A program made the position numbers and the translations under genes. 21,688 nt of DNA from a virus, in the IMG/VR virus record IMGVR_UViG_3300036852_000426, positions 1-21,688 of that record; one strand, given 5' to 3'. Positions within the stretch are counted from its first letter, which is position 1, and each line of letters begins with the position of its first letter. The notes beneath the pieces were generated by a model, which did not search any database, was not told the origin of the DNA, and was given only the letters and a program-made list of their open reading frames with translations. Below are positions 2,478 to 21,688 of the stretch, piece after piece.

Positions 2478-2522
2478 TGTATTAGTAGGTTGACCCGCAG
2501 CCCCGGCGCCCAGATACAAAAC

Positions 2523-2556: not shown

Positions 2557-2584
2557 TAACCACAAAACGAAAGAGAGTTCGCTT

Positions 2585-4674: not shown

Positions 4675-4689
4675 CGGGGCGCGCTCCCG

Positions 4690-6393
4690 TTAGGACTGGG
4701 GCACCGTGCAGCCGCTGATGCTGATCTTCGGGCAGTCCAGACTGTAGTTGTGGTAGATCATGTGCTGGTTCGGGCGATCCAGTAGCACCGTCCACATTTT
4801 CGAGCGGAGGTCGTAGCTGACGACCGTCGGATCAATGACGCACTGGTACTCGGCCAACTCGGTATTCGAGCCGGGCCGGCGCCGCGTCACCTGTTTGGAC
4901 TTCGACGGATCGACGCCGATCTTGATGTCCGCCCAGTTGATGAACCAAATTTGGTTGCCGCGAATCTGGAAGTTCCAGCCGACGACCTGCGTGTTGTAGG
5001 CGTCGATCAAGTCGTTGAAGTAATCGAGCTGGAAGATCGCCAGCACTAACCCTTCCTTCTTCAGATCGTAGTTGTCGTAGACGAACATCAGCATACCATC
5101 GTGGGTGATCTTTTCACCCATCTTGACGAAGCGGGTCGTGTCCCACTGGTACTTCGCCTTGTAGAATTTCGTCATCACCTCGAAGATCAAGTCCGCCGTC
5201 AGGCGGTCGGTGTAGCCGTCGATGGTCCGCGCGTCGTCGGTGTCGGCCTCCCGGTTGCGCCGCAGGTAGTACATGTCGGCGAACAGCAGATCGAGGTCGA
5301 GCGGCAGTCCGAGGAAGTCGCGCACCCGGTTACAGTCGGCCAGTAGATGAAAGATTCCGATGGCCCGCGCCTTGTAGGAGAGCAAACACGTCGGCTGGCC
5401 GACATCGTAAACGGGCGGAAGATTGGTGTAGTTGGCGGTCGTCTGGTTGTCCACGTCGATGGCCATCCCGTAAAACACCGAGTTGTACCACGCCTTGTTG
5501 TAGAGGACCTTTTTCTGCTTTTGCTGCTCGGCGAGCGACATGTAGCGGAACGTCTTGAGGTAGTCGTTCACCTGGCCGTTGAGAATGTAGCCGAGCACCT
5601 TTTCCTGCACCGAATCACGGCAGTAGGATTCGCGGCTCGTCTGAATCCAGCTCGGAAGGAGCTTCGCCGAAAGGTCGGCGGGCAACTCCGGGCAATACGC
5701 CTCTTCGTTGGCCACCGAGTTCGTGCCGATCTCGACCATGCCGAACATCGGCTGCCATTCGGAGCGTTCAGCCGGCGTATACAGCGCCCAGTTGGCGGCG
5801 CTGACCGGAGGATAAACAACCACGTTGGCGCGCGGGATAGCACCAGAATCGGCATTGGTCGCAGAATAGATTGTGACGGTGATCGTCTTCGCCGTCTTGG
5901 TGGTCACATTGTCCCACGTCCGAATGTTGAGCGTCATACCGGCCACGAAGTACCGCTCGATGTTGGCCAGCGTCGTCTGAAACGGACTGTTGCCGAGGCC
6001 AAGAGTGAGCTGCCATGCCGAGGCCGGCGCACCCGCCACGCCACCGACGCCACCGGCGCCCGTGACAATCGTAAAGTAGTTCGCGTTTATGACCGACCGC
6101 TGGATGCGCTGGATAAACGGAAGGATGATCGACTGCTCGCCGTCGATGTTCATCGTGTTCAGCTTGATGTCCTTCGTTGAACCATCGAGCAGGTTCATCA
6201 GCGGGTTCTCGCGCACGCCGAGCATCTTCGCCTCCTTGGTGTCGATGATGGCGCGGGTTAGGGCGATTTCCTTGTAGGAAAGCGCCTCGAATTCAGTTGG
6301 GGTTAGCCCGGTGATGGATGCACGTTTTAATGTACAACCACATGAAGAGTCGATCTTTACGACACGACCTACGCAATTTGCTTCAAGCGCCAT
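4690..6393 (-). CDS. Probable major capsid protein
   Basis: This 567-residue protein of mixed alpha/beta composition has no enzyme motif. It is placed after the portal and scaffold genes and before the neck gene, where the major head protein is expected. The N-terminus contains a CVGRVVKIDSSCGC cysteine cluster and then LTPTEFEALSYKEIALTRAI. A Gly/Ala-rich segment (GAGGVGGVAGAPASAW, about residue 112) may be a flexible loop, and a beta-rich insertion follows. At 567 residues it is longer than typical HK97-fold capsid proteins of 300-400, so extra domains are likely. The ATG at 6393 has no Shine-Dalgarno sequence; instead a 6-bp hairpin (6402-6416) sits 8 bases upstream with an A-rich spacer. 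The assignment rests on synteny and size, not on a recognised signature. Confidence 0.6.
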   Translation of the reverse strand: MALEANCVGRVVKIDSSCGCTLKRASITGLTPTEFEALSYKEIALTRAIIDTKEAKMLGVRENPLMNLLDGSTKDIKLNTMNIDGEQSIILPFIQRIQRSVINANYFTIVTGAGGVGGVAGAPASAWQLTLGLGNSPFQTTLANIERYFVAGMTLNIRTWDNVTTKTAKTITVTIYSATNADSGAIPRANVVVYPPVSAANWALYTPAERSEWQPMFGMVEIGTNSVANEEAYCPELPADLSAKLLPSWIQTSRESYCRDSVQEKVLGYILNGQVNDYLKTFRYMSLAEQQKQKKVLYNKAWYNSVFYGMAIDVDNQTTANYTNLPPVYDVGQPTCLLSYKARAIGIFHLLADCNRVRDFLGLPLDLDLLFADMYYLRRNREADTDDARTIDGYTDRLTADLIFEVMTKFYKAKYQWDTTRFVKMGEKITHDGMLMFVYDNYDLKKEGLVLAIFQLDYFNDLIDAYNTQVVGWNFQIRGNQIWFINWADIKIGVDPSKSKQVTRRRPGSNTELAEYQCVIDPTVVSYDLRSKMWTVLLDRPNQHMIYHNYSLDCPKISISGCTVPQS

Positions 6394-6401
6394 GATATTT
6401 T

Positions 6402-6416
6402 TGGGTTAAAAACCCA
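6402..6416 (-). promoter_or_regulatory. Small hairpin in the leader just before the capsid start
   Basis: TGGGTT and AACCCA form a 6-bp perfect inverted repeat with a 3-base loop, ending 8 bases before the capsid ATG (minus strand). The spacer is A/T-rich and there is no Shine-Dalgarno match. It could shape ribosome access or mRNA stability for a highly expressed gene; this is inference. Confidence 0.35.
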
Positions 6417-6458
6417 GAATATCACTGCGCCGCCTCCGAAGCTGGAATACCCGCCATC

Positions 6459-6527
6459 TATAGGATATACCTATAATTGATTATCTTGCCTGTCTCGTAG
6501 CCCGATCTTGCCTACAAATAATTGTAG
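6459..6527. repeat. Cluster of short palindromes and direct repeats in divergent intergenic region
   Basis: The 188-base gap between the capsid gene and the HNH-AP2 gene (6394-6581) is AT-rich and holds TATAGG/CCTATA (6459-6464 and 6470-6475, 5-base spacer), two copies of ATCTTGCCT (6483-6491 and 6505-6513, 22 bases apart, about two helical turns), and CTACAA/TTGTAG (6512-6517 and 6522-6527, 4-base loop). A TATAAT lies at 6472-6477 on the plus strand but without a good -35. This may be a promoter or operator region for the two divergent genes, or a scar of the endonuclease insertion. Confidence 0.4.
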
Positions 6528-6581
6528 CCAATTAGACACTATAGCATTGACTGATGCACTATTGTGGTTATCTGTTTCCGA

Positions 6582-7178
6582 ATGGCACAAAAAGGAGGTA
6601 AGTGGTTTGTAAGGAACGATAGGTGGATCACCGCCGAATACCTCCGATTCATATTATCCTACGACCCAAATACCGGCGAGTTTAGATGGAAGCAGAAGAT
6701 AAATTGCACCATTGTCGTAGGCGAACTGGCTGGTAGTTCAAGCCCAACCGGCATAATGATAGGCATAAACGGCGCACGGGTAATGGCTCACCGGCTTGCT
6801 TGGCTTTATGTTCACGGTGAATGGCCCGTTGCCACGATAGACCATAAGGACAGAAATAATCACAACAACCGGTGGGAAAACCTCCGCGAGGCCACGCATT
6901 TTCAGCAGCGCGGCAATATGAATCTCAGGCCGCACAAAATGTCCCGGTTTCGCGGGGTGTCATTCAATAAACAACCCGGACTCGCAAGACCGTGGCGAGC
7001 CCAGCTCCGGGTTGATGGCTACTCCAGACAATTGGGGTATTACGCGACCCAAGAAGAGGCGCATGTTGTTTACGAAAAAGCCGCGAAAGAAACTTGGGGT
7101 GATTACTACACCCCGCACAGCGTTCTATTTCCTACGTCCGCGCCACCGCCAGCGCCCGATCCCAATCCGCGTACTTAA
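6582..7178 (+). CDS. HNH homing endonuclease with C-terminal AP2 DNA-binding domain
   Basis: This 198-residue protein has the two-domain layout of a free-standing phage homing endonuclease. The N-terminal ITAEYLRFILSYDPNTGEFRW segment (split here at about 16-36) leads into an HNH domain with AHRLAWLYVHGEWP (69-82), IDHKDRNNHNNRWENL (86-101) and the catalytic-type DH pair at 87-88. Residues 121-177 form an AP2 domain (SRFRGVSF, WRAQLRVDG, LGYYATQEEA, YEKAAKETWGDYY). ATG 6582 is preferred over GTG 6564; a strong AAAGGAGG lies inside the frame at codons 4-6 but no in-frame start follows it. The frame runs 47 bases antisense into the end of the GH130-like gene, and its Pro-rich last 14 residues come from that overlap. 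Lower GC than the neighbours suggests an inserted selfish gene. Confidence 0.88.
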   Translation: MAQKGGKWFVRNDRWITAEYLRFILSYDPNTGEFRWKQKINCTIVVGELAGSSSPTGIMIGINGARVMAHRLAWLYVHGEWPVATIDHKDRNNHNNRWENLREATHFQQRGNMNLRPHKMSRFRGVSFNKQPGLARPWRAQLRVDGYSRQLGYYATQEEAHVVYEKAAKETWGDYYTPHSVLFPTSAPPPAPDPNPRT

Positions 7179-8328
7179 TTTCGGTCACGCCCGCCATCTC
7201 AGCCACCGCCTGCGCCTCCATCGGATTCGCGCATTTCATATATCCGGTCCCGGTGCGACCAACGCGACCGCGAACCACCGTCCAATGGAGGTGCCTCGGC
7301 AGCCCGTCCTCGCCGCGGATAGGCACCGGCATCGAGCCGTTGTCGGCGCTGAAATATCTCGGCGGGATGTCCGACCCGTTGGCCGCACCGAGATGCAGGC
7401 CATCGGCCTTGATCCGCGCCACCGCGCACGCCCAGTCGTTCACCCCCAGCGATACCAGCCAGTTCGGCCCGTCTGGCACCAGCCCGCATGGGAACACCAC
7501 GTAGGGCTTCCACCCGGCCACGTAGCGCGGATCGACGCGGTGGCCGTCCTCCTCACTGCCGACCATCAGCGGCCTCGTCGAGATGCGCAGCGGAGCAAAT
7601 GGCGGCTCGCCCTCGAACGTGTAGGCGGCGGCGTAGTAGCGGATGTAGTGCGGCGCGATTTCGGTCGGCAGCGACGAATGGAAGATCGAAAGCATCGTGC
7701 CGTCCGCTTGCTTCACCGGCGGGGTGCCGCCGCGGAACGCCCCGAAATGCCACATCGCTCCCGGTGCATCGTAGGTGGTCACGACCTGTTCGCCATTCAG
7801 TCGCAGCACCAGATGATTCGGGCGCCCGGCATACACGGCATGAATCGCCCCTTCGTAGTCAAAGAACACCCAGTTCTTTTCGCGGTTCTTGCCGTCGTTC
7901 AGCCCGTAGCGCGGCTGCCAGCTTTCAACCACCGACCAGCGCCCGCTCGTCAGCTTGAGCTGCGAATACTTCATCACGCAGCGGTAATCCTTACCGGGCT
8001 CGTAGCTGCTCATTTCCGTATACGAAATGTATGGCACGCCAGCCACCTCGAAAAGCCGCGGGTCTTCGTAGTGGGCGATCTTGGACTTCCCGAGCTGCAC
8101 CTGCTGGCTCTTGCCGCACGGTTGCAGAGTTTTTGCGTCGAGTTCACAGATGGCCACCGCGCACCGCGAACATGGTTCCTGTAGGTGATAACGGTAGGCC
8201 AGCCACAGTCGCTCGCGGTGGCGGAACATCCCGCAATTCCAACAGCGCGGTGAATCCTTCAGTAGTGCGGCGTTGATCGCCACCGCGTCGAGCTGGGTAA
8301 AAAGAGACGGCTTCACGCCTGCGCCCAT
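7132..8328 (-). CDS. GH130-like five-bladed beta-propeller (glycoside phosphorylase/hydrolase-type) protein
   Basis: The 398-residue protein reads like a GH130-type propeller. In order it has FRHRERLWLAYRYH (35-48), HYEDPRLF (86-93, the EDPR motif holding the family's proposed catalytic Asp), PYISYTEM, EKNWVFFDYEG (150-160), an RGGTPPV motif (199-205), LSIFHSS (213-219), YVVFPCGLV (276-284) and LVSLGVND (291-298). GH130 enzymes break or make beta-mannosidic bonds, often with phosphate. Here the substrate is unknown, and activity is not certain because I cannot check every phosphate-binding residue. About 90 residues follow the propeller. The ATG at 8328 overlaps the scaffold gene by 16 bases and has AAGGTGAT upstream; a longer 498-residue frame is only an antiphase extension across the scaffold gene. 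Finding such a gene between scaffold and capsid is unusual and suggests a virion-associated role. Confidence 0.72.
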   Translation of the reverse strand: MGAGVKPSLFTQLDAVAINAALLKDSPRCWNCGMFRHRERLWLAYRYHLQEPCSRCAVAICELDAKTLQPCGKSQQVQLGKSKIAHYEDPRLFEVAGVPYISYTEMSSYEPGKDYRCVMKYSQLKLTSGRWSVVESWQPRYGLNDGKNREKNWVFFDYEGAIHAVYAGRPNHLVLRLNGEQVVTTYDAPGAMWHFGAFRGGTPPVKQADGTMLSIFHSSLPTEIAPHYIRYYAAAYTFEGEPPFAPLRISTRPLMVGSEEDGHRVDPRYVAGWKPYVVFPCGLVPDGPNWLVSLGVNDWACAVARIKADGLHLGAANGSDIPPRYFSADNGSMPVPIRGEDGLPRHLHWTVVRGRVGRTGTGYMKCANPMEAQAVAEMAGVTEIKYADWDRALAVART

Positions 8329-9677: not shown

Positions 9678-12062
9678 TTATGATTGAGGTTGCGGGTCTT
9701 GAAGCATTGCGCGCCCACCGGGCGGCGGTAGTGGCGGACTGCCATTGACGGGTCCGGCGGGCGCGGGAGGCGCTCCGTTTGGCATCGGTCCACCGCCTTG
9801 CGGCCTGAGCACCTGCATAAGAAATTGCTGTAGCCCTTGGAGCTGTTGCTGCACGGCGCTGACCTGCTTCTTAATTTCCTCATCGGCTGCCGGAATGCGG
9901 TCGTCCTCGCCGGGCGCCAGTTCGATTTGCAGGTCGAGCGGCGCTCCGCTCATGCGGATAATCGAGTTCGCCATGCGGATGATTTGCCCAGCGCCCATCT
10001 TCTGCGCAATCGGCGGTACTTGCAGCAAGAACTGGAGGAGTTGTGTCATCACCTGCGCGCCCTGCGTGTTCAGTGGACGTTCGGCTCCGTCCCGGCTATT
10101 GAAAATATAGTCATAGACCAGATCGCGCAGGTTGCCCATGACCGGCGTCGCCGTCGGCACATTGTTGTCCTTCAGCTTCACGTCCGGCGCCACCCGGAAT
10201 CCCGCCGCCTCCACCACCTCGCGCGTGTAGCGGCGCAGCCCCGGCACCCGAATCTCCGGCTGACCGTGAGTCACCAAGCTCTCGTAGATCATCTCCTTGG
10301 CCGCTGCCGTCATCTCTCGCGGCCCCTGGTTGTTGAATCCATTGATGGCTTGCACGGAGCCCGCAATCTCCGTCACCTCACGGGCTGCCACCTCACGAGG
10401 GTTTGGCTGGCCGAGTTCATTCGGCGACAAAATCAGCAGTCGGTCCGCAAGGTTGAGCAGTTGGCCAAGGGACTCCAGCCCGGCCTGAAATACATTCTGG
10501 ATTTGCGCCTGCACGACCGCGAACGCGGCTCGCGGGTCTTGAATGCCGAGATCGCGGAGCTTCGTCGCGCTATAAATCAGGAGTTTCCGGTCTACCCACC
10601 AGTCGCTATCCGTTCCGTTTTTCTTGAATTCCTCGATGATTTCCGGGTCCAGCGAATCTTTGTCGATCAGCCACAATTGAATCAGGCTCGTGCGAAGCTG
10701 CATGAGCATGTGGGACTCTATATTGCTCGCCTGATCCTGATAGCCGAGCAGCGCCATCGCCATCGACTGATTAGTCAGTCGCCCGTCGTTGCAGTTGATG
10801 CCGCCGTAGCAGGCCGGAATGCTCGGCAGAAACTCCGCGGCGATGATCGTGCAGTCACCGGCTACCGTCAGGTGCAGCCACACATTGCAATCGTAGGTGC
10901 CAATCCCCTCGTGCAGCGGATTGATGCGCTCATAGTAGTGCGTCAGCAGCACCCCGGTATCCATCGTCTCCGAGGAGTAGCGACCGACGTTCGCCTTGAT
11001 GTCGTTGCCGATTGACGGGTCGGGGCCGCGCAGGTCCGGGTAACTCAACACGCACTGATCGAAGTAATAGTTCCAGTAGTCGCTGTAGGTCGCCGCCAGA
11101 TCGGTCCACCCGTTCGTGCAGAAAACGTTTTCGAGATTGTAGAAATCCGAGCCGGTCTCGGTCAGGCTGCGCCATTGCACCAAATCCCAGTAGCCGATGT
11201 ACGACGGCCCAGTGTCGGTGTTGATGTTGGCCAGCGGCGAACTGATGTCGTAGTAAATTCGCGACGGATGCGGGTTAAAGAAATCCACGCCCTCGCGAAC
11301 CACATAGCTCTCGATTTCGTCGGTCGCCTCCTCGCCGGTGTTGGTTTTAACCGGGCGCCATCCGGTCTTCCGATCCCACGCCGAACGCGTGAAAGCCACC
11401 GAATACCCGTAGAGCAACATCTGCCGCCGGCACTGCGAAAAGAAATGCCGATAGTTGTAGGCGTCCGACATCACGTCCACCCTAGCTGAAAGCACATCGC
11501 CGCGGAACTGCGCTACTTCGTCCTCACCTCGCGGATCGTACAGAAAATGCGGCCACTGGTTCGACCACAGTGCATCCATCGCCGCGTGCCGGCGCGTCGT
11601 GTAGCTTTTCAGTAGGTCGATGGAAATATCCGTGATCCGATTTTCGTTCAGCTTGATGACGGTCTTGCCGGACACATCGGTCTTCTTGAAAAACTTGTCG
11701 GCCTGCGTGGTGCCGCCCGATGCTGCCAAGCTGTCGTAAGCCTGCTCGATCTTCAGTTTCCCCTGTGCCCACATCATCAGCGGAATCGTGTGGCGCTGAA
11801 TCGGCGGAGCGTCCGCCGCCATGTCCACCGCCTGAAACGGGCGGCTCGCGCGCAGATTATTGCGCACCCCGTCGATGGTCCGGTTCATCACCCGCGAGCG
11901 AAACCGCCGGTGGATTTCCGCCATCGTCTTCGGCGTCTTCGGAATCTGCTCCGGGTTCAGAATGGTGCCGTCGGTCGCATCCGGCCCGATCTTCGTGGTG
12001 AAAATCTTTCGCAGCTTCTCCGGGCCGCAGCCGTGGCTTTCGAGAATCTCTTTATAGTGCAT
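9678..12062 (-). CDS. Probable portal protein
   Basis: This 794-residue protein is of the size seen in large portal proteins. The N-terminal third is mixed (LKSYTTRRHAAMDALWSNQW near 150). A central part has REGVDFFNPHPSRIYYD and GPSYIGYWDLVQW, as in the clip and wing regions of portals, followed by long helices (ARAAFAVVQ-type and GLESLGQLLNLADRLLI stretches) matching a stem and crown. The last 60 residues are Gln-rich and then Pro/Gly-rich (VSAVQQQLQGLQQFLMQVL), a flexible tail. The ATG at 12062 overlaps the preceding stop as TGATG, so translation is probably coupled. It follows the terminase and precedes the scaffold, the canonical portal slot. The call uses synteny, length and general pattern, since portal sequences diverge strongly. 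Confidence 0.75.
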   Translation of the reverse strand: MHYKEILESHGCGPEKLRKIFTTKIGPDATDGTILNPEQIPKTPKTMAEIHRRFRSRVMNRTIDGVRNNLRASRPFQAVDMAADAPPIQRHTIPLMMWAQGKLKIEQAYDSLAASGGTTQADKFFKKTDVSGKTVIKLNENRITDISIDLLKSYTTRRHAAMDALWSNQWPHFLYDPRGEDEVAQFRGDVLSARVDVMSDAYNYRHFFSQCRRQMLLYGYSVAFTRSAWDRKTGWRPVKTNTGEEATDEIESYVVREGVDFFNPHPSRIYYDISSPLANINTDTGPSYIGYWDLVQWRSLTETGSDFYNLENVFCTNGWTDLAATYSDYWNYYFDQCVLSYPDLRGPDPSIGNDIKANVGRYSSETMDTGVLLTHYYERINPLHEGIGTYDCNVWLHLTVAGDCTIIAAEFLPSIPACYGGINCNDGRLTNQSMAMALLGYQDQASNIESHMLMQLRTSLIQLWLIDKDSLDPEIIEEFKKNGTDSDWWVDRKLLIYSATKLRDLGIQDPRAAFAVVQAQIQNVFQAGLESLGQLLNLADRLLILSPNELGQPNPREVAAREVTEIAGSVQAINGFNNQGPREMTAAAKEMIYESLVTHGQPEIRVPGLRRYTREVVEAAGFRVAPDVKLKDNNVPTATPVMGNLRDLVYDYIFNSRDGAERPLNTQGAQVMTQLLQFLLQVPPIAQKMGAGQIIRMANSIIRMSGAPLDLQIELAPGEDDRIPAADEEIKKQVSAVQQQLQGLQQFLMQVLRPQGGGPMPNGAPPAPAGPVNGSPPLPPPGGRAMLQDPQPQS

Positions 12063-12340
12063 CAGGTCTTGTGCGTTGCGCGTATCATGGCGTAGCTAGC
12101 GTCCACCATTAACTCAAACGCCCTGCCTACCTCTTTGACAATTTCGATGTAATTTCGCTCAAGCATCGCCCGCGCTTCAGCGTTGCGGATATATCCCGGC
12201 TTACCCGACTTTGCTGAAAGGCGCTTTTGTAGCGCGGTCGCCAAATCCACCAATTGCACAATTTGTACATAATACGTTCTCCAAGATATTTCCATCGACC
12301 GCAATAGCACGCCGACAGGTTTTTTAGCTTTTGATTTCAT
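12062..12340 (-). CDS. Small protein sharing a domain with the small terminase candidate
   Basis: This 92-residue protein starts at ATG 12340 and overlaps the upstream gene by 17 bases. Its stop overlaps the portal start as TGATG. Residues from SMEISWRTYY to the end align without gaps to the C-terminal part of the small terminase candidate at 14573-15331: 37 of 74 positions identical by hand count, including the blocks NYIE.VKE.GRAFELM and PGY..N..ARAM/SRAM-like. It therefore looks like a duplicated fragment that lost the DNA-binding N-terminus. It may bind a shared partner in the packaging machine, but its function is unknown. An in-frame start at 12406 would only add antiphase sequence from the neighbour. 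Confidence 0.65.
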   Translation of the reverse strand: MKSKAKKPVGVLLRSMEISWRTYYVQIVQLVDLATALQKRLSAKSGKPGYIRNAEARAMLERNYIEIVKEVGRAFELMVDASYAMIRATHKT

Positions 12341-12689
12341 TGGTGGCCAGTTCCGCAAACGGATCAAGCACGTCGTCGCTGTACGCGCGGCAGACGCTAT
12401 ATTCAAGGGCGGTCAGCAACAGCGCCGTCTGACGGGCGTAAAACCGGGGCAGAACTTTAGTCTCGCGGAAAACGTCCACCGAGTCGTGCTTTAACGCCAC
12501 CATCGAGGCCACCTCGTAGGGCGTGTGCTGCAAAAACTGGCAGAGTCGCGCAAACCGATCCCACGTCCACCGCTCCACGAGCAGCATGTTCGCGTAACGC
12601 ACGTCGATCATCAGCGATGCCGGCGTCTGATGCGGGCTGCCTTGGTTTGGCAGCGACGGAATGTAGGCAAACTCGCGCCGGGCTACCAT
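12324..12689 (-). CDS. Hypothetical protein of the portal-terminase interval
   Basis: This 121-residue protein has a helical core, WDRFARLCQFLQHTPYEVASM (interrupted at about 43-64), that has a helix-turn-helix look, followed by RFYARQTALLLTALEYSV. I do not recognise the family. The ATG at 12689 overlaps the previous stop as TGATG, with GAGGAA about 12 bases upstream. The gene overlaps the next one by 17 bases, so four genes from 12919 down to the portal form a coupled string. A role in packaging or head completion is suggested only by place. Confidence 0.6.
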   Translation of the reverse strand: MVARREFAYIPSLPNQGSPHQTPASLMIDVRYANMLLVERWTWDRFARLCQFLQHTPYEVASMVALKHDSVDVFRETKVLPRFYARQTALLLTALEYSVCRAYSDDVLDPFAELATNEIKS

Positions 12690-12995: not shown

Positions 12996-14570
12996 CTAGG
13001 CCGCGCTGCGGATAAGCGTCTGCGACGATCCCGCAATCGGTATCAGCGCCGTCGGGTTTATTAGCGCGAAATGTAGCATGTAGCTCACCGCGTCGAAGAC
13101 GTGTTTGTGCGGCGACTTGATCGGTTTCAAAATCTCATCGGCCTCCGGCGCCTCGCCGGGTTTGAACTTCTTGCCCTCCAGTTGCAGAAACATCTGGTGG
13201 ATTTTCGGGCAGCCAGACGATACCACAATTTCGTCATCCGATAGCAACCGCTGCAACAACCGCACGCGCGCCACAATCGACCCATCGCCCTTTGGACACG
13301 CCTTAATCTTGCCCAGCGGCTCCAGCTTGTACTTCACGCGGTTCGCCTCGTAAATTTGCTCGAACTGCATCACGTCGAAACTCCCGCTCTGCGCGCGGTA
13401 TTGGTTGAACGACGCCTCGTCGGCCACCCACACCTGCTTCATTTCCTTGCCGACCTGATCGCGCCACCAGCGGATGCGCCGCATCACCAGCGGAATCAAC
13501 GTCGTATAGGGAATGGCCCGCCCAATGGTCACCACCTCGTCGAAGAACACCCACTTCATCTTCCCGCCAATCGGGAGGTGCTGCACGAATACGAATGCAT
13601 TGTTTGGCGAGCCTGGGTCGATGCTCAACCCCATCACATGATCGGCGTTCGGCTGGATGCGGCTCCGATGGCTGGGGCGCCCGTTCTCCTCGATTGGATG
13701 CACATGCCGCACCGGGTTGTAGATTTCACGAAACAACCCCTCGCCCGATGGCCGGTCCACCCACTCACCCGCCGCCATGCGCGCCAACTCCACTTCGTTG
13801 TAGCGGTAGATTTTCGCCACCTGCTCGAAATAACCATCGGGCAGCCGCTCGCGGTTTTCCTCCTTCGGGAAGAATATCTCGGCAAAATCCTCGTCGTAGG
13901 CGCCAGTCGTCTCGTCGATGGGATTCACAAACCACGTCTGATAGACCCAGTGCGACGGCCCCTCTGGGTTACACGCGCCGATGTACTGCTGCACACCCTC
14001 GACGTGCGGGCGGCGGCCAAGCTGGGCGGCCACCGGCTCAAAGTACTCGGCGCTCGGGCACGAGGTCAGCTCATCGACAAACACCATGCTGGGCACCATG
14101 CCGCGGATGCGCTCGCGCAGTTGGTTGGCGTGCGGCGAACTCATCACGCAGATCATCGACCAGCCGCCATGCCGGTTCTCGACCCAGATGTATTGGAAGT
14201 GCTGCTCATCCGACTTTACATCCGAAATCTGAATACCGAGCCCCTCTTTCCACTTTGGCGCTATCTCGCCGATCAGCATGTCCCACGAGCCGCCCTTTTT
14301 GGCCATGTTCTGCGTGCGGACGAGAATCAGCGCGAGTGCGTTCTGGTTCTCGTAGCAGTGTTTCATCAGCTTCGACACGCCCAAAAAACTTTTTGCGCCC
14401 CCCTTGGCGCCCCACAGCAGCAGGTATTTCGCATCGCAGTTCCACGCCTTGAGCTGCGTCGGATTCAGGTCGGGCATCCACGACTCATCGACCTCGTGCT
14501 TCGGCGGTGCCTTCGGCGGACGAATCTTTTCGCCTAGCAGCTTGAACGCTTGCGGATCAATGCGCGGCAT
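12996..14570 (-). CDS. Large terminase subunit (ATPase/nuclease)
   Basis: This 524-residue enzyme drives DNA into the procapsid and cuts the concatemer. The ATPase half shows a Walker A motif GAKGGAKS (54-61), a Walker B MVFVDE (162-167, catalytic Glu167) and a coupling motif ACNPEG (199-204). The RNase H-like nuclease half shows three acidic centres: Asp318 in GLSIDPGS, Asp384 in VWVADEAS and Asp493 in HVFDAVSY. Length and motif order match full-length terminases. The ATG at 14570 follows the small terminase candidate's stop by 2 bases, which suggests reinitiation. It is the most certain call in the window and the anchor for reading the minus-strand block as a phage morphogenesis operon. Confidence 0.95.
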   Translation of the reverse strand: MPRIDPQAFKLLGEKIRPPKAPPKHEVDESWMPDLNPTQLKAWNCDAKYLLLWGAKGGAKSFLGVSKLMKHCYENQNALALILVRTQNMAKKGGSWDMLIGEIAPKWKEGLGIQISDVKSDEQHFQYIWVENRHGGWSMICVMSSPHANQLRERIRGMVPSMVFVDELTSCPSAEYFEPVAAQLGRRPHVEGVQQYIGACNPEGPSHWVYQTWFVNPIDETTGAYDEDFAEIFFPKEENRERLPDGYFEQVAKIYRYNEVELARMAAGEWVDRPSGEGLFREIYNPVRHVHPIEENGRPSHRSRIQPNADHVMGLSIDPGSPNNAFVFVQHLPIGGKMKWVFFDEVVTIGRAIPYTTLIPLVMRRIRWWRDQVGKEMKQVWVADEASFNQYRAQSGSFDVMQFEQIYEANRVKYKLEPLGKIKACPKGDGSIVARVRLLQRLLSDDEIVVSSGCPKIHQMFLQLEGKKFKPGEAPEADEILKPIKSPHKHVFDAVSYMLHFALINPTALIPIAGSSQTLIRSAA

Positions 14571-14572
14571 GG

Positions 14573-15265
14573 CTATTGCGGCATCGGCTCAAGCCGGGGT
14601 TTCGGCGGTGCCTTCGGCGCGCTCACAATCGCCCAGCCCGGTTTCTTCTTCTTGCCACCCGGCATCTCAATGTCGTTCGCGTCGGCCATCATCTTAACCA
14701 TTGAGGTCGCCGCCGTCAGCATCAACTCGAACGCGCGCCCCGCCTCCTTCACGAACTCGATGTAGTTTTTGTTGAACATCGCCCGCGACTCGTCGTTGGC
14801 CACATAACCCGGCTCCGTATCCTTTGCCATCAGCCGGGCGTGGAGCGCATCCGCCGCGCCCATCATTTTCAAAACCTGAAGATAGTAGGAGCGCGATGTC
14901 ATCTCCAGTGATTGCGCGATAAAATGTCCAGTGGTGGACGCCAATCCCTTCAGCGCCTTCAATTGCTTCAGGGTGTCCTCGGGTATGCCGGCTTTCTTTA
15001 GCCCCATCATGTGCATCATCCGCTCGGCATCCGTCACCATGTCGAGCACGTCGATCTTCAACACCTCCGGCGGCAACCCCTCGGCATTGCGCGTCATTAC
15101 GTCGCCCTGCGTCGGAGGCTGCATCCCTTTGGCGTCCGTAATCAAGCTGTTGTAGATCGCGTTGAGCTGGTTGTTGCCCCTGATCCGATCCTTCACGTAC
15201 TCCTTCGACTTGCCGAGAATTCTCGCGGCTCGATATTTAGCCCCATGCTTTCCGCCATTGGCCAC
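14573..15265 (-). CDS. Probable small terminase subunit (start unresolved, possible frameshift product)
   Basis: The frame lies directly before the large terminase and carries a helix-turn-helix-like segment (FIDALKAAV, then YRAARILGKSKEYVKDRI), followed by a helical middle part and a C-terminal tail with a basic GGKKKKPGW. This fits a DNA-recognising small terminase. The coordinates use the only canonical in-frame start after the previous gene, GTG 15265 with AAGG upstream, giving 230 residues. That start would cut the first helix, because protein-like sequence (REVIPLPVFIDALKAA) continues upstream to about 15331 without ATG, GTG or TTG. A much earlier ATG at 15583 would read antiphase through the neighbouring gene and gives an implausible Gly/Pro/Arg-rich stretch. 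A -1 frameshift from the 149-aa gene, a rare start codon or a one-base sequence error could explain this. Confidence 0.7.
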   Translation of the reverse strand: MANGGKHGAKYRAARILGKSKEYVKDRIRGNNQLNAIYNSLITDAKGMQPPTQGDVMTRNAEGLPPEVLKIDVLDMVTDAERMMHMMGLKKAGIPEDTLKQLKALKGLASTTGHFIAQSLEMTSRSYYLQVLKMMGAADALHARLMAKDTEPGYVANDESRAMFNKNYIEFVKEAGRAFELMLTAATSMVKMMADANDIEMPGGKKKKPGWAIVSAPKAPPKPRLEPMPQ

Positions 15266-15292
15266 CGCGGCCTTGAGGGCGTCGATGAATAC

Positions 15293-15331
15293 CGGGAGCG
15301 GTATTACCTCCCGCGACCCTGTGGTAAAAAC
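15293..15331 (-). other. Candidate -1 frameshift site: slippery-like run plus hairpin
   Basis: On the minus strand a GTTTTTA run (15331-15325) is read G TTT TTA in the 149-aa frame, followed after 11 bases by an inverted repeat CGGGAG (15313-15308) / CTCCCG (15298-15293) with a 9-base loop that contains the zero-frame TAA stop. Slipping back one base would join the 149-aa protein to the small terminase frame. The heptamer is imperfect (first base G), so the site is only suggestive. Confidence 0.35.
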
Positions 15332-15753
15332 CTCACGGCGGCTGCCTTCCGCAGCACCGCCAGCCGGCGGCTCTCCGCCGCGTATTGCAGCCGGGTCGAT
15401 TCCCGCAGAATCGAGTCGTCGATCTGGCGCAGCTCGATCTCCCGGTGGGCGCTCGCAAACCTCAGCGGCAGGAACTTCGCGAACTCCCTCTGCACCGCCC
15501 TCCACTGGTTGTCGATCTCCCGCGTTGTCGGCATGGGCCGGGCCAGCAGCTCCTTCCTCTCGTCCATCAGTCGGCGAATGCATGGGTTGCGGGCGATTAA
15601 ACGGTCGAGTTGTTCGGCGCTGAGAAAATCCGGCTTTAGGCGGCGGCGGATTTCACTCGGGATTGAATCATCTTGATGATCGGCAGCAGCTCCGACTCCC
15701 ACTTTGGGCTCCGCCGCAGGTATGCTCCCGGTTTCGCGTTCCTCATCGTGCAT
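15304..15753 (-). CDS. Hypothetical protein upstream of small terminase, possible fusion partner by frameshift
   Basis: This 149-residue protein is charged and helical (SEIRRRLKPDFLSAEQLDRL, then REIDNQWRAVQREFAKFL and RRLAVLRKAAAV). I do not recognise a family. ATG 15753 would overlap the previous gene by 118 bases; an alternative GTG at 15702 with GGAG 7 bases upstream shortens the protein to 132 residues and the overlap to 67 bases, and is perhaps more likely. Its last codons contain the slippery-like TTTTT run discussed for the small terminase, so it may be the N-terminal part of a fused protein. The neighbour's place suggests a packaging-related role. Confidence 0.55.
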   Translation of the reverse strand: MHDEERETGSIPAAEPKVGVGAAADHQDDSIPSEIRRRLKPDFLSAEQLDRLIARNPCIRRLMDERKELLARPMPTTREIDNQWRAVQREFAKFLPLRFASAHREIELRQIDDSILRESTRLQYAAESRRLAVLRKAAAVRFLPQGRGR

Positions 15754-16252: not shown

Positions 16253-16336
16253 GTGATGGACGGATGGATTTTTTTAACAATCATGTCAATCGGGACTTGA
16301 CGGTGTTAGCGATTGCTGTCTCGACTTGCTACCGAC
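16253..16336. promoter_or_regulatory. Divergent control region with nested palindrome
   Basis: This 84-base gap separates the leftward structural operon from the rightward glycan operon. It contains TAACA (16275-16279) ... GTCAA (16285-16289) tcgggac TTGAC (16297-16301) .. TGTTA (16304-16308), two nested inverted repeats. TTGACA reads leftward at 16289-16284 and TTGACG rightward at 16297-16302, both like -35 boxes, but no good -10 box lies at the right distance on either strand. An operator for the XRE-type regulator encoded next to it is a reasonable inference. Confidence 0.5.
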
Positions 16337-16573
16337 ATGGCGATCAAATCTCAAACACGCGTGTGCTCGCACTGCGGCGGGACCGGGAGGGAGATTGACC
16401 CGTTTCTTTTCGGACAGCAAATGCGTCGGCTGAGAAAAGCTGCATCCCTGTCGCTTAGGGAAGTCGCGCGGCGCGCTGGGTTTTCCGCGCCATACATCTC
16501 CGATTTGGAGCACGGGCGGAGGGCGTGGAGCGAAAACGCCGTGATGAAATACCAGGAGGCGCTGAAGCAATGA
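16337..16573 (+). CDS. XRE-family transcriptional regulator with CxxC knuckle
   Basis: This 78-residue protein has an N-terminal CSHCGGTGREID segment (a single CxxCGGTG, as in zinc-knuckle or DnaJ-like repeats) followed by a canonical Cro/C1 helix-turn-helix: FGQQMRRLRKAASLSLREVA, RRAGFSAPYISDLEHGRR. Such short regulators are common in phages. ATG 16337 is used; an upstream TTG at 16315-type position adds nothing convincing. There is no ribosome site, so it could be nearly leaderless. It is the first gene of the plus-strand cassette and adjoins the palindromic divergent region, which suggests that it controls that cassette, the morphogenesis operon, or both. Confidence 0.85.
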   Translation: MAIKSQTRVCSHCGGTGREIDPFLFGQQMRRLRKAASLSLREVARRAGFSAPYISDLEHGRRAWSENAVMKYQEALKQ

Positions 16574-16776
16574 AGGGCATCTACGAGATCGTCTGGCTGA
16601 ACAGTTTCGACATGCGCTGCTGCATGGTTGTCATCGCCGGCAACGCACAGGCCGCGCTCGCGCTCGCCAAATGCACGCCATCGGATGCGAATGAAAACAA
16701 GCTTGAACTCATCGACCTGCTAGCCACCGAAGTCGGGCTCGGTGAAGACCGCGTGGTTTGCGAGGAGTCGCCATGA
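16570..16776 (+). CDS. Small hypothetical protein in glycan cassette
   Basis: This 68-residue protein (MKGIYEIVWLNSFDMRCCMV, then AGNAQAALALAKCTPSDANE) has an alternating strand start and a helical middle. It begins in an ATGA overlap with the regulator stop, with AGGAGG 12 bases upstream, and ends in an ATGA overlap with the GT11-type gene. The family is not recognised. Its coupling at both ends argues that it is translated. Confidence 0.6.
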   Translation: MKGIYEIVWLNSFDMRCCMVVIAGNAQAALALAKCTPSDANENKLELIDLLATEVGLGEDRVVCEESP

Positions 16777-17543
16777 GCACCCTCGTCTGCACCCTTCAGG
16801 GACGCACAGGTAATCAGGCGATGCAGTGGTTGTTTGCCTACGCCTACGCGAAAAAATACGGACTTGTCTTTCAGTGCGATGAATGGATCGGCGAGCGGAT
16901 TTGGAATTTACCGCCATACTCCCGGCCCGGCCTTCGGCAACTACCCAGATTCAATGAAGTCCAACTCGCTGAGTTCGCTCGGAACATTCAGCATCCGCAC
17001 GAGCTTCGATTTGATTTTGAGTATCGCGGATACGCGCAAACCCAATGGTGCGTAGATTTCTACACGAAGCGCGAAGCGATCTCGTGTTTGAGACTCAAGC
17101 CAGAGGTGGAGAAGGCTTGCATAGATATGCTGCCACACTTCAGCAAGAGGGTGCCGATCACGTGCCACCTTCGGCGCGGCGACTATTTTGGTTACAATTA
17201 CGTGGTCGTGAAGCGCAGTTCATACGAACGCGCGTTGGAGTGCTTTGGTTTACTTGCGGCACCCTGCTACGTCTCTGAAGAGACACCGTGGCCTCGTGGC
17301 GACCTACCGGAAGAACTGTCATTCATGCCAGATTTCTATCGCATGATGACAACGGCCACATTGCTGCGCGCCAACAGTTCGTTTTCGTGGCTTGCCGCGT
17401 TACTTAATCCCAACGCGCTCGTTCTTTCTCCGGTGATCGCCGGGCTAGAAGGAGGGCGGGAGCACGATTGCCAGTTCGTATCGGGCAACTGGCCGCGCTT
17501 CGCCAATCTCAATTTCACCGAAGACCTGCACGTCTCGCCATGA
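16773..17543 (+). CDS. GT11-type (alpha-1,2-fucosyltransferase-like) glycosyltransferase
   Basis: This 256-residue protein shows the GT11 hallmarks: an N-terminal GRTGNQAMQWLFAYAYAKKY (10-29; family pattern G.LGNQ.FQ..A....), a donor-binding HLRRGD (132-137; the HxRRxD motif of alpha-1,2- and alpha-1,6-fucosyltransferases) and ANSSFSWLAALL (200-211; family pattern SNSSFSWW.A.L). Known members transfer fucose from GDP-fucose to galactose-type acceptors in O-antigens and glycans. The donor here is inferred. Its length is slightly below the usual 280-300. GAGGAG lies 5-6 bases upstream of ATG 16773, and both ends are ATGA overlaps. No membrane segment is seen, so it should act in the cytosol on a lipid-linked, nucleotide-linked or protein-linked acceptor. 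Confidence 0.85.
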   Translation: MSTLVCTLQGRTGNQAMQWLFAYAYAKKYGLVFQCDEWIGERIWNLPPYSRPGLRQLPRFNEVQLAEFARNIQHPHELRFDFEYRGYAQTQWCVDFYTKREAISCLRLKPEVEKACIDMLPHFSKRVPITCHLRRGDYFGYNYVVVKRSSYERALECFGLLAAPCYVSEETPWPRGDLPEELSFMPDFYRMMTTATLLRANSSFSWLAALLNPNALVLSPVIAGLEGGREHDCQFVSGNWPRFANLNFTEDLHVSP

Positions 17544-17746
17544 GCATCCTTCGGCACAAAATTTCCTATCGCGTCGCCTCCGACGTGGAGTTCCCGGCGG
17601 TTTACCGAAAACTGCCTGAGCGGCGCGGATACCCGGAGTTTTCTTTTATCTGCCGCGTTGGGACGTGGCGCCTGTTTGGCCTCCCAATTCTTTCAACGGA
17701 AAAAATCGTCGTGTCGAGACTGACCGATCTCGGGGAGAAGTTATGA
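17540..17746 (+). CDS. Small hypothetical protein between GT11 and FkbM genes
   Basis: This 68-residue basic protein (MSILRHKISYRVASDVEFPA, then YPEFSFICRVGTWRLFGLPI) has a short aromatic, strand-rich core. I do not recognise a family. ATGA overlaps join it to the glycosyltransferase before it and the methyltransferase after it. It could be an accessory to either enzyme, but nothing in the sequence shows this. Confidence 0.5.
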   Translation: MSILRHKISYRVASDVEFPAVYRKLPERRGYPEFSFICRVGTWRLFGLPILSTEKIVVSRLTDLGEKL

Positions 17747-18342
17747 AAGCCTTCACCGAGTCCCTCCGCTACGACTACCCCGACCTCACGCCCGAAAGCG
17801 TGATTCTAGAAATCGGCACACATCGCGGCCAATGGGCGGTCGAGATGTTGCGCAAATACGGCTGCCGCTATGTTGGCTTCGAGCCGATCCGCGAATTCTT
17901 CGTCGCTGCATCAAAGGCACTTGTCCCTTTCGCAAATACCCGTCTTTATCCATACGCTATGGGCGGCTCACACCGCACAGACATATTCAAAGTAAAAGGC
18001 GACATGAGCGGTCAGTTCGCCGACGGCCCTGAAGAGAAGGTGTGTGTTTTAGACGTGGCAGAGCCGTTAAAGAATTTTACCACGCCCGGTGCAGACGAGC
18101 GGTGGGCGCCATCACATAAAGTAGATTTACTCGCCATCAACGCCGAGGGCGGCGAGTTCGAGATCATGGAACGCATCCTCGATGCCGGGCTCACTGACAG
18201 GATCATCCATTTTCAAATCCAGCCACACCCAATCGTCTCCGACTTTGAGCCCCGCTGGCAGCGCATCATGGACCGCATGGCGGAGACGCACACACTTTCG
18301 TACTACGCGAGCTGGGTTTGGGCGGGATGGGATCGAAAATGA
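17743..18342 (+). CDS. FkbM-family SAM-dependent methyltransferase
   Basis: This 199-residue protein has a class I methyltransferase fold of the FkbM type. Motif I is ILEIGTHRGQW (21-31), motif II is VGFEPIREFF (44-53), and the late INAEGGEFEIM (132-142) matches the family's ID.EG.E..vL motif. FkbM enzymes O-methylate sugars or small hydroxyl groups. GGGAGAAG 5 bases before ATG 17743 is a good ribosome site. The neighbouring glycosyltransferases point to methylation of a sugar, perhaps the fucose-like residue added by the GT11-type enzyme (inference). It is shorter than many FkbM proteins (about 240-280). Confidence 0.8.
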   Translation: MKAFTESLRYDYPDLTPESVILEIGTHRGQWAVEMLRKYGCRYVGFEPIREFFVAASKALVPFANTRLYPYAMGGSHRTDIFKVKGDMSGQFADGPEEKVCVLDVAEPLKNFTTPGADERWAPSHKVDLLAINAEGGEFEIMERILDAGLTDRIIHFQIQPHPIVSDFEPRWQRIMDRMAETHTLSYYASWVWAGWDRK

Positions 18343-18755
18343 AAATCTACATGGTAGATAACGGTGGCGAATACAGCGACTACTCGGTGCTTGGGTTGTT
18401 CACCGACCGAGACCTCGCCGAGCGTTACGTCGAACAAGTAACCAACAGCAGGATCACCGAATGGGACGCCGACGTTCCACCCGAGCAGTGGACATATGCC
18501 TACGGCCACTTGGGCGCTCGCAAAGAAAAAGGGAAGTGGGTGGTGCATTGCCACTCGAATTCAGACGAAGCCGATCCAAGCCCAACCTCCTGCGAAATCC
18601 AGTTTGGGCACTATCGCGGCTGGGATAAACCAGACCCCATTACCGGCGAGTACACGCACGCCACCGGAATCTCGCGCGCTCGCGATGCTGAGACTGCCAA
18701 GAAAATCCTCATCGACGCATTCTGGAAACGCGTCGCCGAATTGGAGCTGGCATGA
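18339..18755 (+). CDS. Hypothetical protein in glycan cassette
   Basis: This 138-residue acidic protein begins MKIYMVDNGGEYSDYSVLGL, followed by FTDRDLAERYVEQV, a pattern common in small phage proteins that have a strand, a glycine turn and a helix. It ends with a helical ARDAETAKKILIDAFWKRVAEL. No catalytic motif is visible. ATGA overlaps lie at both ends, and GGGA precedes the start. Unknown function; it might be carried only by position in the operon. Confidence 0.6.
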   Translation: MKIYMVDNGGEYSDYSVLGLFTDRDLAERYVEQVTNSRITEWDADVPPEQWTYAYGHLGARKEKGKWVVHCHSNSDEADPSPTSCEIQFGHYRGWDKPDPITGEYTHATGISRARDAETAKKILIDAFWKRVAELELA

Positions 18756-19351
18756 AATTGGCGGATTCCAAATCCCAAGCAGGCCAGGATATTTTTGTGG
18801 CGACGGTATGCCCAAACGGAAAAACTTTCCTCGACGTGGGGTGCGGTGCGCCGATTACGATCAACAACACCTACGCGTTGGAGCAGATCGGGTGGCGTGG
18901 ACTGCTGGTCGATAATTCGCAAGAGGCAATTGATGCCTGCGGCATTCGCGCCAGCCCTGCGATCCGAGCCGACGCCACGTCGCTCGACTGGAATGCCGCC
19001 CTTAGGAAGTACGTCCCATCATGGGGCCTCTACGGCATCGACTACCTGAGTCTCGACATCGACGAGGCTACGTTCGCAGCCGTCGATGCACTCATGGATG
19101 AAGGTGCCTGTTTTCGCGTCATCACTGTCGAGCACGACGCGTACCGTCACGGCGACCTATTACGCGCACCGATCCGCAACCGCTTTTCCAAGCACGACTA
19201 CATCCTTATTGCCGCCGACGTGTGCTCGGACGACGGACTGCCTTACGAAGACTGGTGGGTTTACATGGACCTCGCCGATCAAGCCGACCGCTTCCGCAGT
19301 CACAACATGCGCTGGCGCGACATCCTCGCGCAAGGCGGAGTCATCATATGA
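18752..19351 (+). CDS. FkbM-like SAM-binding methyltransferase
   Basis: This 199-residue protein starts KLADSKSQAGQDIFVATV, the SQ.GQD opening of many FkbM proteins linked to sugar operons. It then has TFLDVGCGAP (25-34, SAM-binding motif I), an NNTYALEQIGWRGLLVDN segment (38-55) that ends motif II with an acidic residue, and DYLSLDIDE (97-105) in the place of the ID.EG motif. The last element has Asp-Glu instead of EG, so activity should be tested and not assumed. GGAG lies 6 bases before ATG 18752. ATGA junctions lie on both sides. It is clearly different from the first FkbM gene, so the two are not a recent duplication. Confidence 0.75.
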   Translation: MKLADSKSQAGQDIFVATVCPNGKTFLDVGCGAPITINNTYALEQIGWRGLLVDNSQEAIDACGIRASPAIRADATSLDWNAALRKYVPSWGLYGIDYLSLDIDEATFAAVDALMDEGACFRVITVEHDAYRHGDLLRAPIRNRFSKHDYILIAADVCSDDGLPYEDWWVYMDLADQADRFRSHNMRWRDILAQGGVII

Positions 19352-19989
19352 ACGTCCCAAACCTACTCAACCGCATTACCACCGAATGCGCGAAAATTTC
19401 TGGATGGTGCAGCGAGGAGAAAGCCATAGACCTCGCGATGGCCATTCTCGTGCTGCGCCCAGCCAACGTGCTCGACCTCGGGGTGTGGTTTGGAAAATCC
19501 ACCATTCCGATGGCGCTCGCCTGCTCGGTAATCGGCAAGGGCATCGTTCACGCTGTCGATCCGTGGACCAAGGCGGCGGCGGTTGCCGACATGGACAAGC
19601 CCAACGCTGAATGGTGGGGCAATCAGGACTACCAAGCCGCATATCAGTCTTTCAAGGAAAAGGTGGACGCGCTCGATCTCAACCGAAACGTCGTCATCCA
19701 CCGCCAGAAGTCCGACGACTACGTTCCTCCGCCCGTACTGGATTTAGCGCACATAGACGGAAACCATGGGCCGCAGGCCATCGCCGATGTAAACCGCTTC
19801 GCGCCCAGCATCCGCTACGGTGGAATCGTGTGTCTCGACGACATTAACTGGTCTACTGATGGCGTGGCGCACGTTTCAATTGCAGTAAACCGCCTACTCA
19901 AACTCGGCTTCGAGCAACTCTCCCACACGAAGATCGAGGGCGTCGGCGAGTGGGCGATGTTTCAACGCGTGAGGGCCGCCGGACGATGA
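19348..19989 (+). CDS. Class I methyltransferase (Methyltransf_24-like)
   Basis: This 213-residue protein carries VLDLGVWFGKST (41-52, SAM motif I), GIVHAVDPWT (65-74, motif II with Asp71), LAHIDGNHGPQAIADV (133-148) and GGIVCLDDINW (158-168). The IDG.H....v..D and G.i...DD motifs are typical of the Methyltransf_24 and cephalosporin-hydroxylase-like group, which acts on sugars and amino sugars in surface-glycan operons. A hydroxylase-like side activity cannot be excluded. GGAG stands 9 bases before ATG 19348 and both ends are ATGA overlaps. It is the third SAM-binding protein of the cassette. Confidence 0.78.
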   Translation: MNVPNLLNRITTECAKISGWCSEEKAIDLAMAILVLRPANVLDLGVWFGKSTIPMALACSVIGKGIVHAVDPWTKAAAVADMDKPNAEWWGNQDYQAAYQSFKEKVDALDLNRNVVIHRQKSDDYVPPPVLDLAHIDGNHGPQAIADVNRFAPSIRYGGIVCLDDINWSTDGVAHVSIAVNRLLKLGFEQLSHTKIEGVGEWAMFQRVRAAGR

Positions 19990-20828
19990 ATACTCCAGAC
20001 AACTGTTTCGACAAAATCTTTGTGATTAACTTGGAGCGCCGGACTGATCGTTGGGCGCAAGCCACAGAGCAGCTAATCAAGAATGGGATCACGCGCGCCG
20101 AACGCTTCATCGGGCATGACAGTCCAGTGAATCACGAAGGCCGCGTGAGCGCCAACATGGGTTGCACCGCATCGCACCGCGGACTTCTTGAGCTGATCGC
20201 CCATTATCGTTGGCCCAAAGTTCTAATTCTGGAGGACGACGCCCTCTTCCTCGATTGGTTCGTACCGCGATTCAGCGACGCCATGACATACATCCCGCAG
20301 CAATGGGACATGCTATTTCTGGGAGGTTCTTACGCGGAAAATCCGCATAGCCGATACAATGCTTGGTGGATTCGCACCAACGGCCTGATGACGACCAGCA
20401 GCTACGTCATCACCGCTGAGATGGCCCGCAAAATGGCCCCGCACATATCGGGCGACGTTGGGATAGATTCGCTTTACCACAAGTTTCAACGCGAGAACCT
20501 GTGCTACATGAGCACCCCACGCTTGATCGTTCAACGTCCGAGCTACTCCGACATCCAAGGTCGCGACTGCGACAACTCCATGTCGATGCTCGACTCCCGC
20601 CACGAGGAAATGCTCCTAGAAGGCCGCTGGGTCGATTCATTCAACGGGATGCGCGCTTTCCGCTCGGAAATCCCGTGGCGCGAGATTGCGGCGCCCAACG
20701 ACAAGGATGGAGATACCGTCATCGTCGGCGACGAGGAGTTCAAGATCGCCGCTATTCAGCTCCCGAAGCACAAGGCGCCGTGGTATCGCGGGGAGAGTGT
20801 TACGTTTTTGCTCACGCCATGCATTTGA
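19986..20828 (+). CDS. GT25-family (LPS/procollagen-type) glycosyltransferase
   Basis: This 280-residue protein matches GT25: FVINLERRTDRW (12-23), a GCTASHRGLLELI segment (59-71; the family's GCT.SH motif) and VLILEDDALF (79-88), with the EDD pair at 83-85 expected to bind the metal and nucleotide sugar. Bacterial GT25 enzymes add galactose or similar sugars to lipooligosaccharide. A C-terminal 45-residue extension (APNDKDGDTVIVGDEEF onward) looks like a separate small beta domain. ATG 19986 lies in an ATGA overlap and GAGGG is upstream. No signal peptide is seen. Acceptor unknown. Confidence 0.85.
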   Translation: MNTPDNCFDKIFVINLERRTDRWAQATEQLIKNGITRAERFIGHDSPVNHEGRVSANMGCTASHRGLLELIAHYRWPKVLILEDDALFLDWFVPRFSDAMTYIPQQWDMLFLGGSYAENPHSRYNAWWIRTNGLMTTSSYVITAEMARKMAPHISGDVGIDSLYHKFQRENLCYMSTPRLIVQRPSYSDIQGRDCDNSMSMLDSRHEEMLLEGRWVDSFNGMRAFRSEIPWREIAAPNDKDGDTVIVGDEEFKIAAIQLPKHKAPWYRGESVTFLLTPCI

Positions 20829-21688
20829 CCATCGCCTTCTTCACATCCCGCATCAACCCTTGTATCCAGTGGTTCTTCGACTCGCTTGATCGCGAGACCC
20901 GCGGCGACTACACTGGAATCAAGGTTGTTGTCGTGGATTTTTGGGCGCAGCCAAACGGCGCCTACGATTCTTCGCCGGCGTATCGCCAAGCCGTCCTGCT
21001 CGACGGCAGGTCGCCAACCTGCGCGCCGACTTGGGTCGCGCCAAAAAGCACTGTCTGGCAGGGACCATCACGCCGCACTAAGGTCGATTGGTTCGCAGCC
21101 GCCAATGCGCGCAATACCGCCATCTGCCTTGCGCCCGATGGCTGGATCGCATTTGTCGATGACCTATCCGTACTACTGCCCGGCTGGCTCGCGCGCGTTC
21201 GCGAGGCTATGAAAGGTCCGCAGAATCGGATAACGTGCGGCGCATATCGCAAAGTTCGTGACCTCGTGGTCAAGGACGGCGAAGTCGCCTCCTACACCGA
21301 TAATCCGCCCGGCAACGACAACCGCCTCGCGCATGTCAAAGGCGACGGCCCTCACGAGTGTGGTTCCAATTGGCTCTACGGTTGCTCGCTCGCGGCGCCG
21401 GTCGAAGCGTTTCTAACGATCAACGGGTTTCCTGAGGCATTGTGTGACAGTCTCGGATTCGAGGACGTAATTTGTGGAATCATGCTCGGGAAAAAGGGCT
21501 ACAACTTCGTCTACGATCCGCGAATGATGACCTTCGAGTCCGAGGAACTGCACTCGCAGTTACCCGTAATGAAACGCTCGGACTACGGCGTAAGCCCGAA
21601 CGACAAATCGCACGCAGTTCTGAATATCGCGGTGACGGGCGACGGCTGGCACCCAAACTATTTCGGCGAGGAGGGCATTCGTGGACTT
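20819..21688 (+). CDS. GT-A/GT2-like glycosyltransferase, cut by right edge
   Basis: From ATG 20819 an open frame of 290 codons runs to the window end, overlapping the GT25 stop by 10 bases. MHLTIAFFTSRINPCIQWFF opens a GT-A fold. NARNTAI (96-102) and WIAFVDDLSVLLPGWL (109-124) match the aRN.a and metal-binding DxD-type region (Asp114-Asp115). INGFPEALCDSLGFEDVICG (201-220) resembles the acceptor/galactosyltransferase-type NGFPE...GFED motif, where the ED pair is usually catalytic. The frame is open-ended, so length and C-terminal domains are unknown. It is probably the third glycosyltransferase of the cassette; sugar and acceptor cannot be told. Confidence 0.75.
   Translation, partial: MHLTIAFFTSRINPCIQWFFDSLDRETRGDYTGIKVVVVDFWAQPNGAYDSSPAYRQAVLLDGRSPTCAPTWVAPKSTVWQGPSRRTKVDWFAAANARNTAICLAPDGWIAFVDDLSVLLPGWLARVREAMKGPQNRITCGAYRKVRDLVVKDGEVASYTDNPPGNDNRLAHVKGDGPHECGSNWLYGCSLAAPVEAFLTINGFPEALCDSLGFEDVICGIMLGKKGYNFVYDPRMMTFESEELHSQLPVMKRSDYGVSPNDKSHAVLNIAVTGDGWHPNYFGEEGIRGL

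Follow-up and report, generated by a model that had tools for sequence, protein, structure and literature searches.

The right end of the DNA analysed here very likely carries a phage-borne operon for glycan assembly and methylation, of a type seen in many aquatic phages, as judged from its gene families and their surroundings. The window, meaning the whole stretch analysed, is the complete IMG/VR virus record IMGVR_UViG_3300036852_000426 (21,688 bases), and the right edge of the operon is the contig end. From position 16337 to this end, ten successive ORFs (g1 to g10, all on the plus strand) were found, encoding an XRE regulator, three glycosyltransferases, three class-I SAM methyltransferases and three small unassigned proteins. 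A sequence-only reading had placed three glycosyltransferases and three SAM-binding proteins after an XRE-type regulator, and this was essentially right, except that g3 can be called only GT11-like and g7 only FkbM-like. Its description of the block as a phage-borne, tightly overlapping operon for glycan building and methylation is borne out by comparable operons around relatives in other phages.

The junctions from g1 to g10 comprise eight ATGA overlaps of four bases and one overlap of ten bases (g9/g10), and comparison with the ORF list and the sequence showed that the coordinates and overlap counts given earlier were correct. For comparison, 13 junctions were examined in the contig's minus-strand module and no four-base overlap was seen, and the tight packing thus belongs to the ten-gene block. 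Such overlaps are common in related operons (6 of 11 junctions in Synechococcus phage DSL-LC02, 5 of 7 in locus L025 and 1 of 8 in viral contig L010), so the overlap pattern is nothing unusual for operons of this kind. Since g10 has no stop codon at the contig end, the operon may continue beyond the contig.

The first gene of the operon, g1 (16337..16573, 78 aa), encodes an XRE/Cro-C1 type HTH regulator, with Pfam HTH_31 (2e-12) and HTH_3 matches above the curated cut-off and a short, Cys-containing N-terminus (CSHCGGTG). Two proteins of 68 aa, g2 (16570..16776, joined to g1 by an ATGA overlap) and g4 (17540..17746), had no match in Pfam, PHROG or NCBIfam. The third small protein, g6 (18339..18755, 138 aa), has an N-terminus resembling DUF7336, with a Pfam match (7e-5) slightly below the cut-off.

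Evidence for the three glycosyltransferases differs in kind. For g3 (16773..17543, 256 aa), the glycosyltransferase profile PHROG 2644 was matched at 2e-7, and phmmer gave 6e-9 and 1.5e-5 to two phage proteins within strong Pfam GT11 matches. The motifs GR-GNQ, H-RRGDY and ANSSFSW are conserved between g3 and its aligned relatives. The match of g3 itself to Pfam GT11 (PF01531) was not significant (E 0.66, below the cut-off). Its AlphaFold model was poor (pLDDT 47), and the best PDB matches, the fucosyltransferases NodZ, POFUT1 and FUT8, are therefore a weak hint only. Because the support comes from PHROG, phmmer relatives, motifs and fold while Pfam stays below its cut-off, we name g3 a divergent GT11-like protein of the fucosyltransferase superfamily and not GT11. 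The GT25 glycosyltransferase g9 (19986..20828, 280 aa) matched Pfam Glyco_transf_25 above the cut-off (9e-11) and PHROG 2835 (1e-13). In an alignment with its relatives the EDD metal (catalytic) motif and the GC-x-SH motif are present, and g9 has a C-terminal extension missing from these relatives; its best PDB match is a procollagen galactosyltransferase (3e-5). The GT2 glycosyltransferase g10 (20819..21688, at least 289 aa) is cut by the contig end, and its match to Pfam Glycos_transf_2 (PF00535, 8e-6) passed the cut-off (26.3 bits against 23.3). No close relatives of g9 and g10 were confirmed in IMG/VR, and none of g3 and g10 were found in annotated phages.

Among the methyltransferases, g5 (17743..18342, 199 aa) belongs to the FkbM family, with a match to Pfam Methyltransf_21 (PF05050) above the cut-off (2e-6), a match to NCBIfam TIGR01444 below its cut-off (1.7e-5), and EIGTHRG as motif I. 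The Methyltransf_24 family protein g8 (19348..19989, 213 aa) matched PF13578 at 4e-13, passing the cut-off (50.5 bits against 26.3), and its motif I is DLGVWFG. For g5 and g8, no close relatives were confirmed in IMG/VR and no relatives were found in annotated phages. Between them lies g7 (18752..19351, 199 aa), which has the hallmark N-terminus SQAGQDIF and no Pfam match of its own, PF05050 included. The FkbM match was obtained for 3 of the 8 members of the g7 alignment, and the AlphaFold model (pLDDT 89.8) folds as a SAM methyltransferase, the class to which its PDB matches belong. On these two grounds, relatives and predicted fold, g7 is named an FkbM-like class-I SAM methyltransferase. An anti-phage defence function of the block was also considered and rejected; PADLOC gave HTH matches and a single weak match to g5, and nothing else.

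The minus-strand module next to the operon encodes the terminase large subunit (12996..14570, minus strand), 1.8 kb from the operon. Through its matches to the PHROG 2 terminase profile (3.5e-18) and Pfam Terminase_6N (7e-9), this gene anchors the module as phage. Candidates for portal, scaffold, capsid and fibre on the minus strand were assigned by order and size only, and no family match was found for them. No close relatives of the terminase and the portal candidate were confirmed in IMG/VR; the capsid candidate had no relative in 84,980 genomes or in phages, and a search of 50,697 phage records gave nothing near-identical to the contig. A divergent gap of 84 bases (16253..16336) separates the module from the operon, and a consensus scan of this gap gave no sigma-70-like promoter.

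Several other features outside the operon were recorded. The large fibre-like protein (228-2519, minus strand) has a Ser plus Thr content of 29% and no family match. Within the presumed structural module, a GH130-like protein (beta-mannoside phosphorylase family; 7132-8328, minus strand) matched Pfam barely above the cut-off (1.7e-6), and its ORF overlaps the end of the scaffold-like ORF by 16 bases. It had no relative in annotated phages, and the 16 records searched for a GH130 link contained no GH130 match. Two minus-strand proteins (12062-12406 and 14573-15583) share a stretch of 76 residues with 49% identity, and this duplicated domain thus stands on either side of the large terminase region. 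Two HNH endonucleases (2537-3241 and 6564-7178), probably homing endonucleases, lie on the plus strand, opposite to the structural genes between which they are found.

Conserved synteny of the ten genes was proposed earlier as a check; the exact order was found nowhere else, while pieces of it recur. A scan with g7 as a single protein gave 11 IMG/VR loci, some of which are near-duplicates, and a profile scan of IMG/VR added three further contigs (L015, L018 and L023). Four phage records also contained relatives, but 84,980 genomes yielded only three loci, all from Pelagibacterales; in two of these (L046 and L047) the g7 relative stands alone amid genes that look housekeeping-like by eye. Nearly all viral relatives lie within sugar operons with GT11, GT25, GT2, FkbM, GDP-mannose dehydratase or epimerases. 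Among 66 neighbouring ORFs in 13 viral loci, matches were to GDP_Man_Dehyd (10), Epimerase (10), GT2 (4), DegT (3), FkbM (2) and GT11 (2); these counts overlap because one protein may match several families, and Synechococcus phage S-SCSM2R (L028) is excluded. Homologues occurring only as scattered single genes, a pattern that the sequence-only reading named as evidence against itself, were looked for, and the viral relatives of g7 do not show this pattern. In L015 a GT11 gene overlaps the g7 relative by four bases with GT25 upstream, and in L004 the g7 relative adjoins a g5 relative, with GT11 and GT2 also present. In S-SCSM2R a g7-like domain lies inside a larger protein annotated as CcmH/NrfG (5353-7218), near which sugar genes are absent. 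A tandem pair of g7-like stretches was seen in the viral contig L018 (543-2395), the second within a longer ORF.

A partly similar arrangement was seen in L010 (IMGVR_UViG_3300020042_006789), a viral contig of 11 kb in which a relative of FkbM-like g7, a Methyltransf_24-like gene and GT25 follow in the same order as here. This cassette has overlaps and lies directly upstream of, and co-directional with, the genes for the small and large terminase subunits, whereas the operon in the window is on the strand opposite to its terminase gene. These three L010 genes are preceded by GT2 genes and by a gene for a radical SAM-like protein (4437-5078), which is itself part of the sugar cassette and slightly below the Pfam cut-off. 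The Methyltransf_24-like gene also stays under the Pfam cut-off, and no similarity to g8 could be detected; the GT25 gene is also below the cut-off, yet similar to g9 at 7.5e-7. We consider it improbable that FkbM-like g7, Methyltransf_24 and GT25 form a recurring module, carried next to the packaging genes in phages that are not related to one another, whose product is a glycan specific to phages that bears several methylated sugars and decorates the virion.

These data also bear on the origin of the block. Bacterial chromosomes commonly carry glycan islands, and the position of the block at a contig end, on the other strand and with slightly lower GC, would suit a polysaccharide island of bacterial origin adjoining the end of a prophage, so that these would not be phage genes at all. 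GC3 is somewhat lower in the operon genes (0.64-0.75) than in the structural genes (0.68-0.81), a difference from which phage and host origin cannot be told apart. Against such an island, the block lies only 84 bases from phage genes, and searches of the window found neither a tRNA nor a recognised integrase, nor any long repeat that might mark an attachment site. The small ORFs g2, g4 and g6, which have no bacterial family matches, are interleaved with the enzyme genes; g7 relatives are mostly viral, as against three bacterial loci; and the comparable cassette of L010 stands directly beside terminase genes. A bacterial island is therefore very unlikely. Because the ten-gene block starts 84 bases from a divergent terminase module, and because the window is an entire IMG/VR contig, a phage origin of the block is very probable.

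Starting from the observed gene content, overlaps, phage context and family recurrence, we infer which reactions take place and in what order, what they act on and how the phage gains, as follows. Once the host is infected, the regulator would be produced jointly with the products of at least nine overlapping genes, probably through translational coupling. Using nucleotide sugars of the host, the three glycosyltransferases (GT11-like, GT25 and GT2), all predicted to be soluble, would attach sugars to a cytoplasmic acceptor. Hydroxyl groups of the sugars may then be methylated by the three methyltransferases (FkbM, FkbM-like and Methyltransf_24), which would modify or terminate the chain, and the product would be a short glycan assembled and methylated in the cytoplasm. 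Sequential addition and capping by methylation had been read from the gene order, from which they do not follow, and both are guesses.

The most likely acceptor may be a precursor of a host surface glycan (LPS or capsule), in which case phage receptors would be altered and competitors kept out. Hydropathy gave no convincing membrane segment in any of the ten proteins, and family profile searches found no nucleotide-sugar enzyme, flippase, polymerase or GtrA/GtrB among the ten genes. With all of these missing, and membrane proteins too, the ten genes offer no direct connection to the cell surface. A close second to the host surface, and a quite possible one, is that the operon glycosylates and methylates virion proteins of the phage itself, either the Ser/Thr-rich fibre (228-2519) or the capsid, and thereby shields or tunes the particle. 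This competes with the host surface as a target and not with the assignment as a glycan operon. All enzymes look soluble, as a cytoplasmic route of protein glycosylation needs; the operon adjoins the structural module, as the L010 cassette directly precedes terminase; and 29% of the predicted fibre protein is Ser or Thr. GT25 includes protein glycosyltransferases, among them the procollagen galactosyltransferase matched best by g9, and there is a precedent in mycobacteriophages (PMC12619734, PMC12363180). Against a virion target, many related phage clusters carry genes for nucleotide-sugar synthesis, pointing to larger glycans, and the operon is on the strand opposite to the structural genes and so is probably differently timed.

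Targets other than the host surface or the virion are, taken together, rather unlikely. One of them is phage DNA, with glucosylated or hypermodified bases made against restriction, which we regard as highly improbable. Phage glycosyltransferases acting on DNA are known (cited in PMC12619734), and g8 has as its best PHROG a family labelled DNA methyltransferase, but this match is to an internal segment of a longer profile. Neither a base hydroxylase nor a nucleotide synthase was found among the ten genes, with most early phage genes lying outside the contig. Moreover, the GT25, GT11-like and GT2 families are known from sugar and protein acceptors, which argues against DNA. The phage seroconversion (gtrABC) cassette was also compared with the operon and rejected as its class; hydropathy showed no membrane segment, and neither a GtrA flippase nor a GtrB bactoprenyl glucosyltransferase family was present.

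Sugar operons of phages are widespread in aquatic viruses, and their products and targets have rarely been tested. Since the g7 family (SQAGQDIF proteins) marks such operons, it is a handy search tag, and a compact operon with three methyltransferases offers a small enzyme set for the question of host-surface versus virion glycosylation.

Among known systems, the "LPS" or capsular polysaccharide clusters of cyanophages and jumbo phages, such as the 15-gene cluster of P-SSM2 (PMC7824862), contain several glycosyltransferase families as the present operon does, and relatives of g7 occur in operons of this cluster type. In a survey of jumbo phages, such clusters had at least eight glycosyltransferase families, with O-methyltransferases in related clusters, and were proposed to modify the host surface against competing phages (PMC7824862). 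Complete clusters carry NAD-dependent epimerase/dehydratase or other nucleotide-sugar enzymes, and more restricted sets occur outside cyanophages (PMC7824862). Compared with these clusters, the operon in the window has glycosyltransferases of mixed families in a phage genome (IMG/VR record and terminase) but no NDP-sugar epimerases or dehydratases, though it is cut by the contig end; nucleotide-sugar enzymes, absent from the ten genes, are not strictly required in a phage glycan-modification cluster. It further differs in having three methyltransferases and a leading XRE regulator, and in belonging to a phage without a close sequenced relative. In Synechococcus phage DSL-LC02 (OR032571, 91916-102407), a g7 relative (33%), GT11 and GT25 are present in one operon with many four-base overlaps; unlike the operon in the window, it is larger, has another order, carries GDP-mannose dehydratase and GDP-fucose synthase, and has no Methyltransf_24 match. 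According to two papers (PMC12619734, PMC12363180), it is established that mycobacteriophages glycosylate their virions with glycosyltransferases of their own, and phage-encoded enzymes are reported to modify the particles of Che8, Corndog and Myrna (PMC12363180); PMC12363180 mentions no methyltransferases. In the literature on phage FkbM and glycosyltransferases, no paper describing such an operon was found. The earlier statement that no such phage system had been described thus holds for the exact gene order but not more widely, since phage clusters mixing glycosyltransferases and sugar-modifying enzymes have been described (PMC7824862). Because such clusters and virion glycosylation have already been published, this operon adds a divergent example to a known kind and is not a new system.
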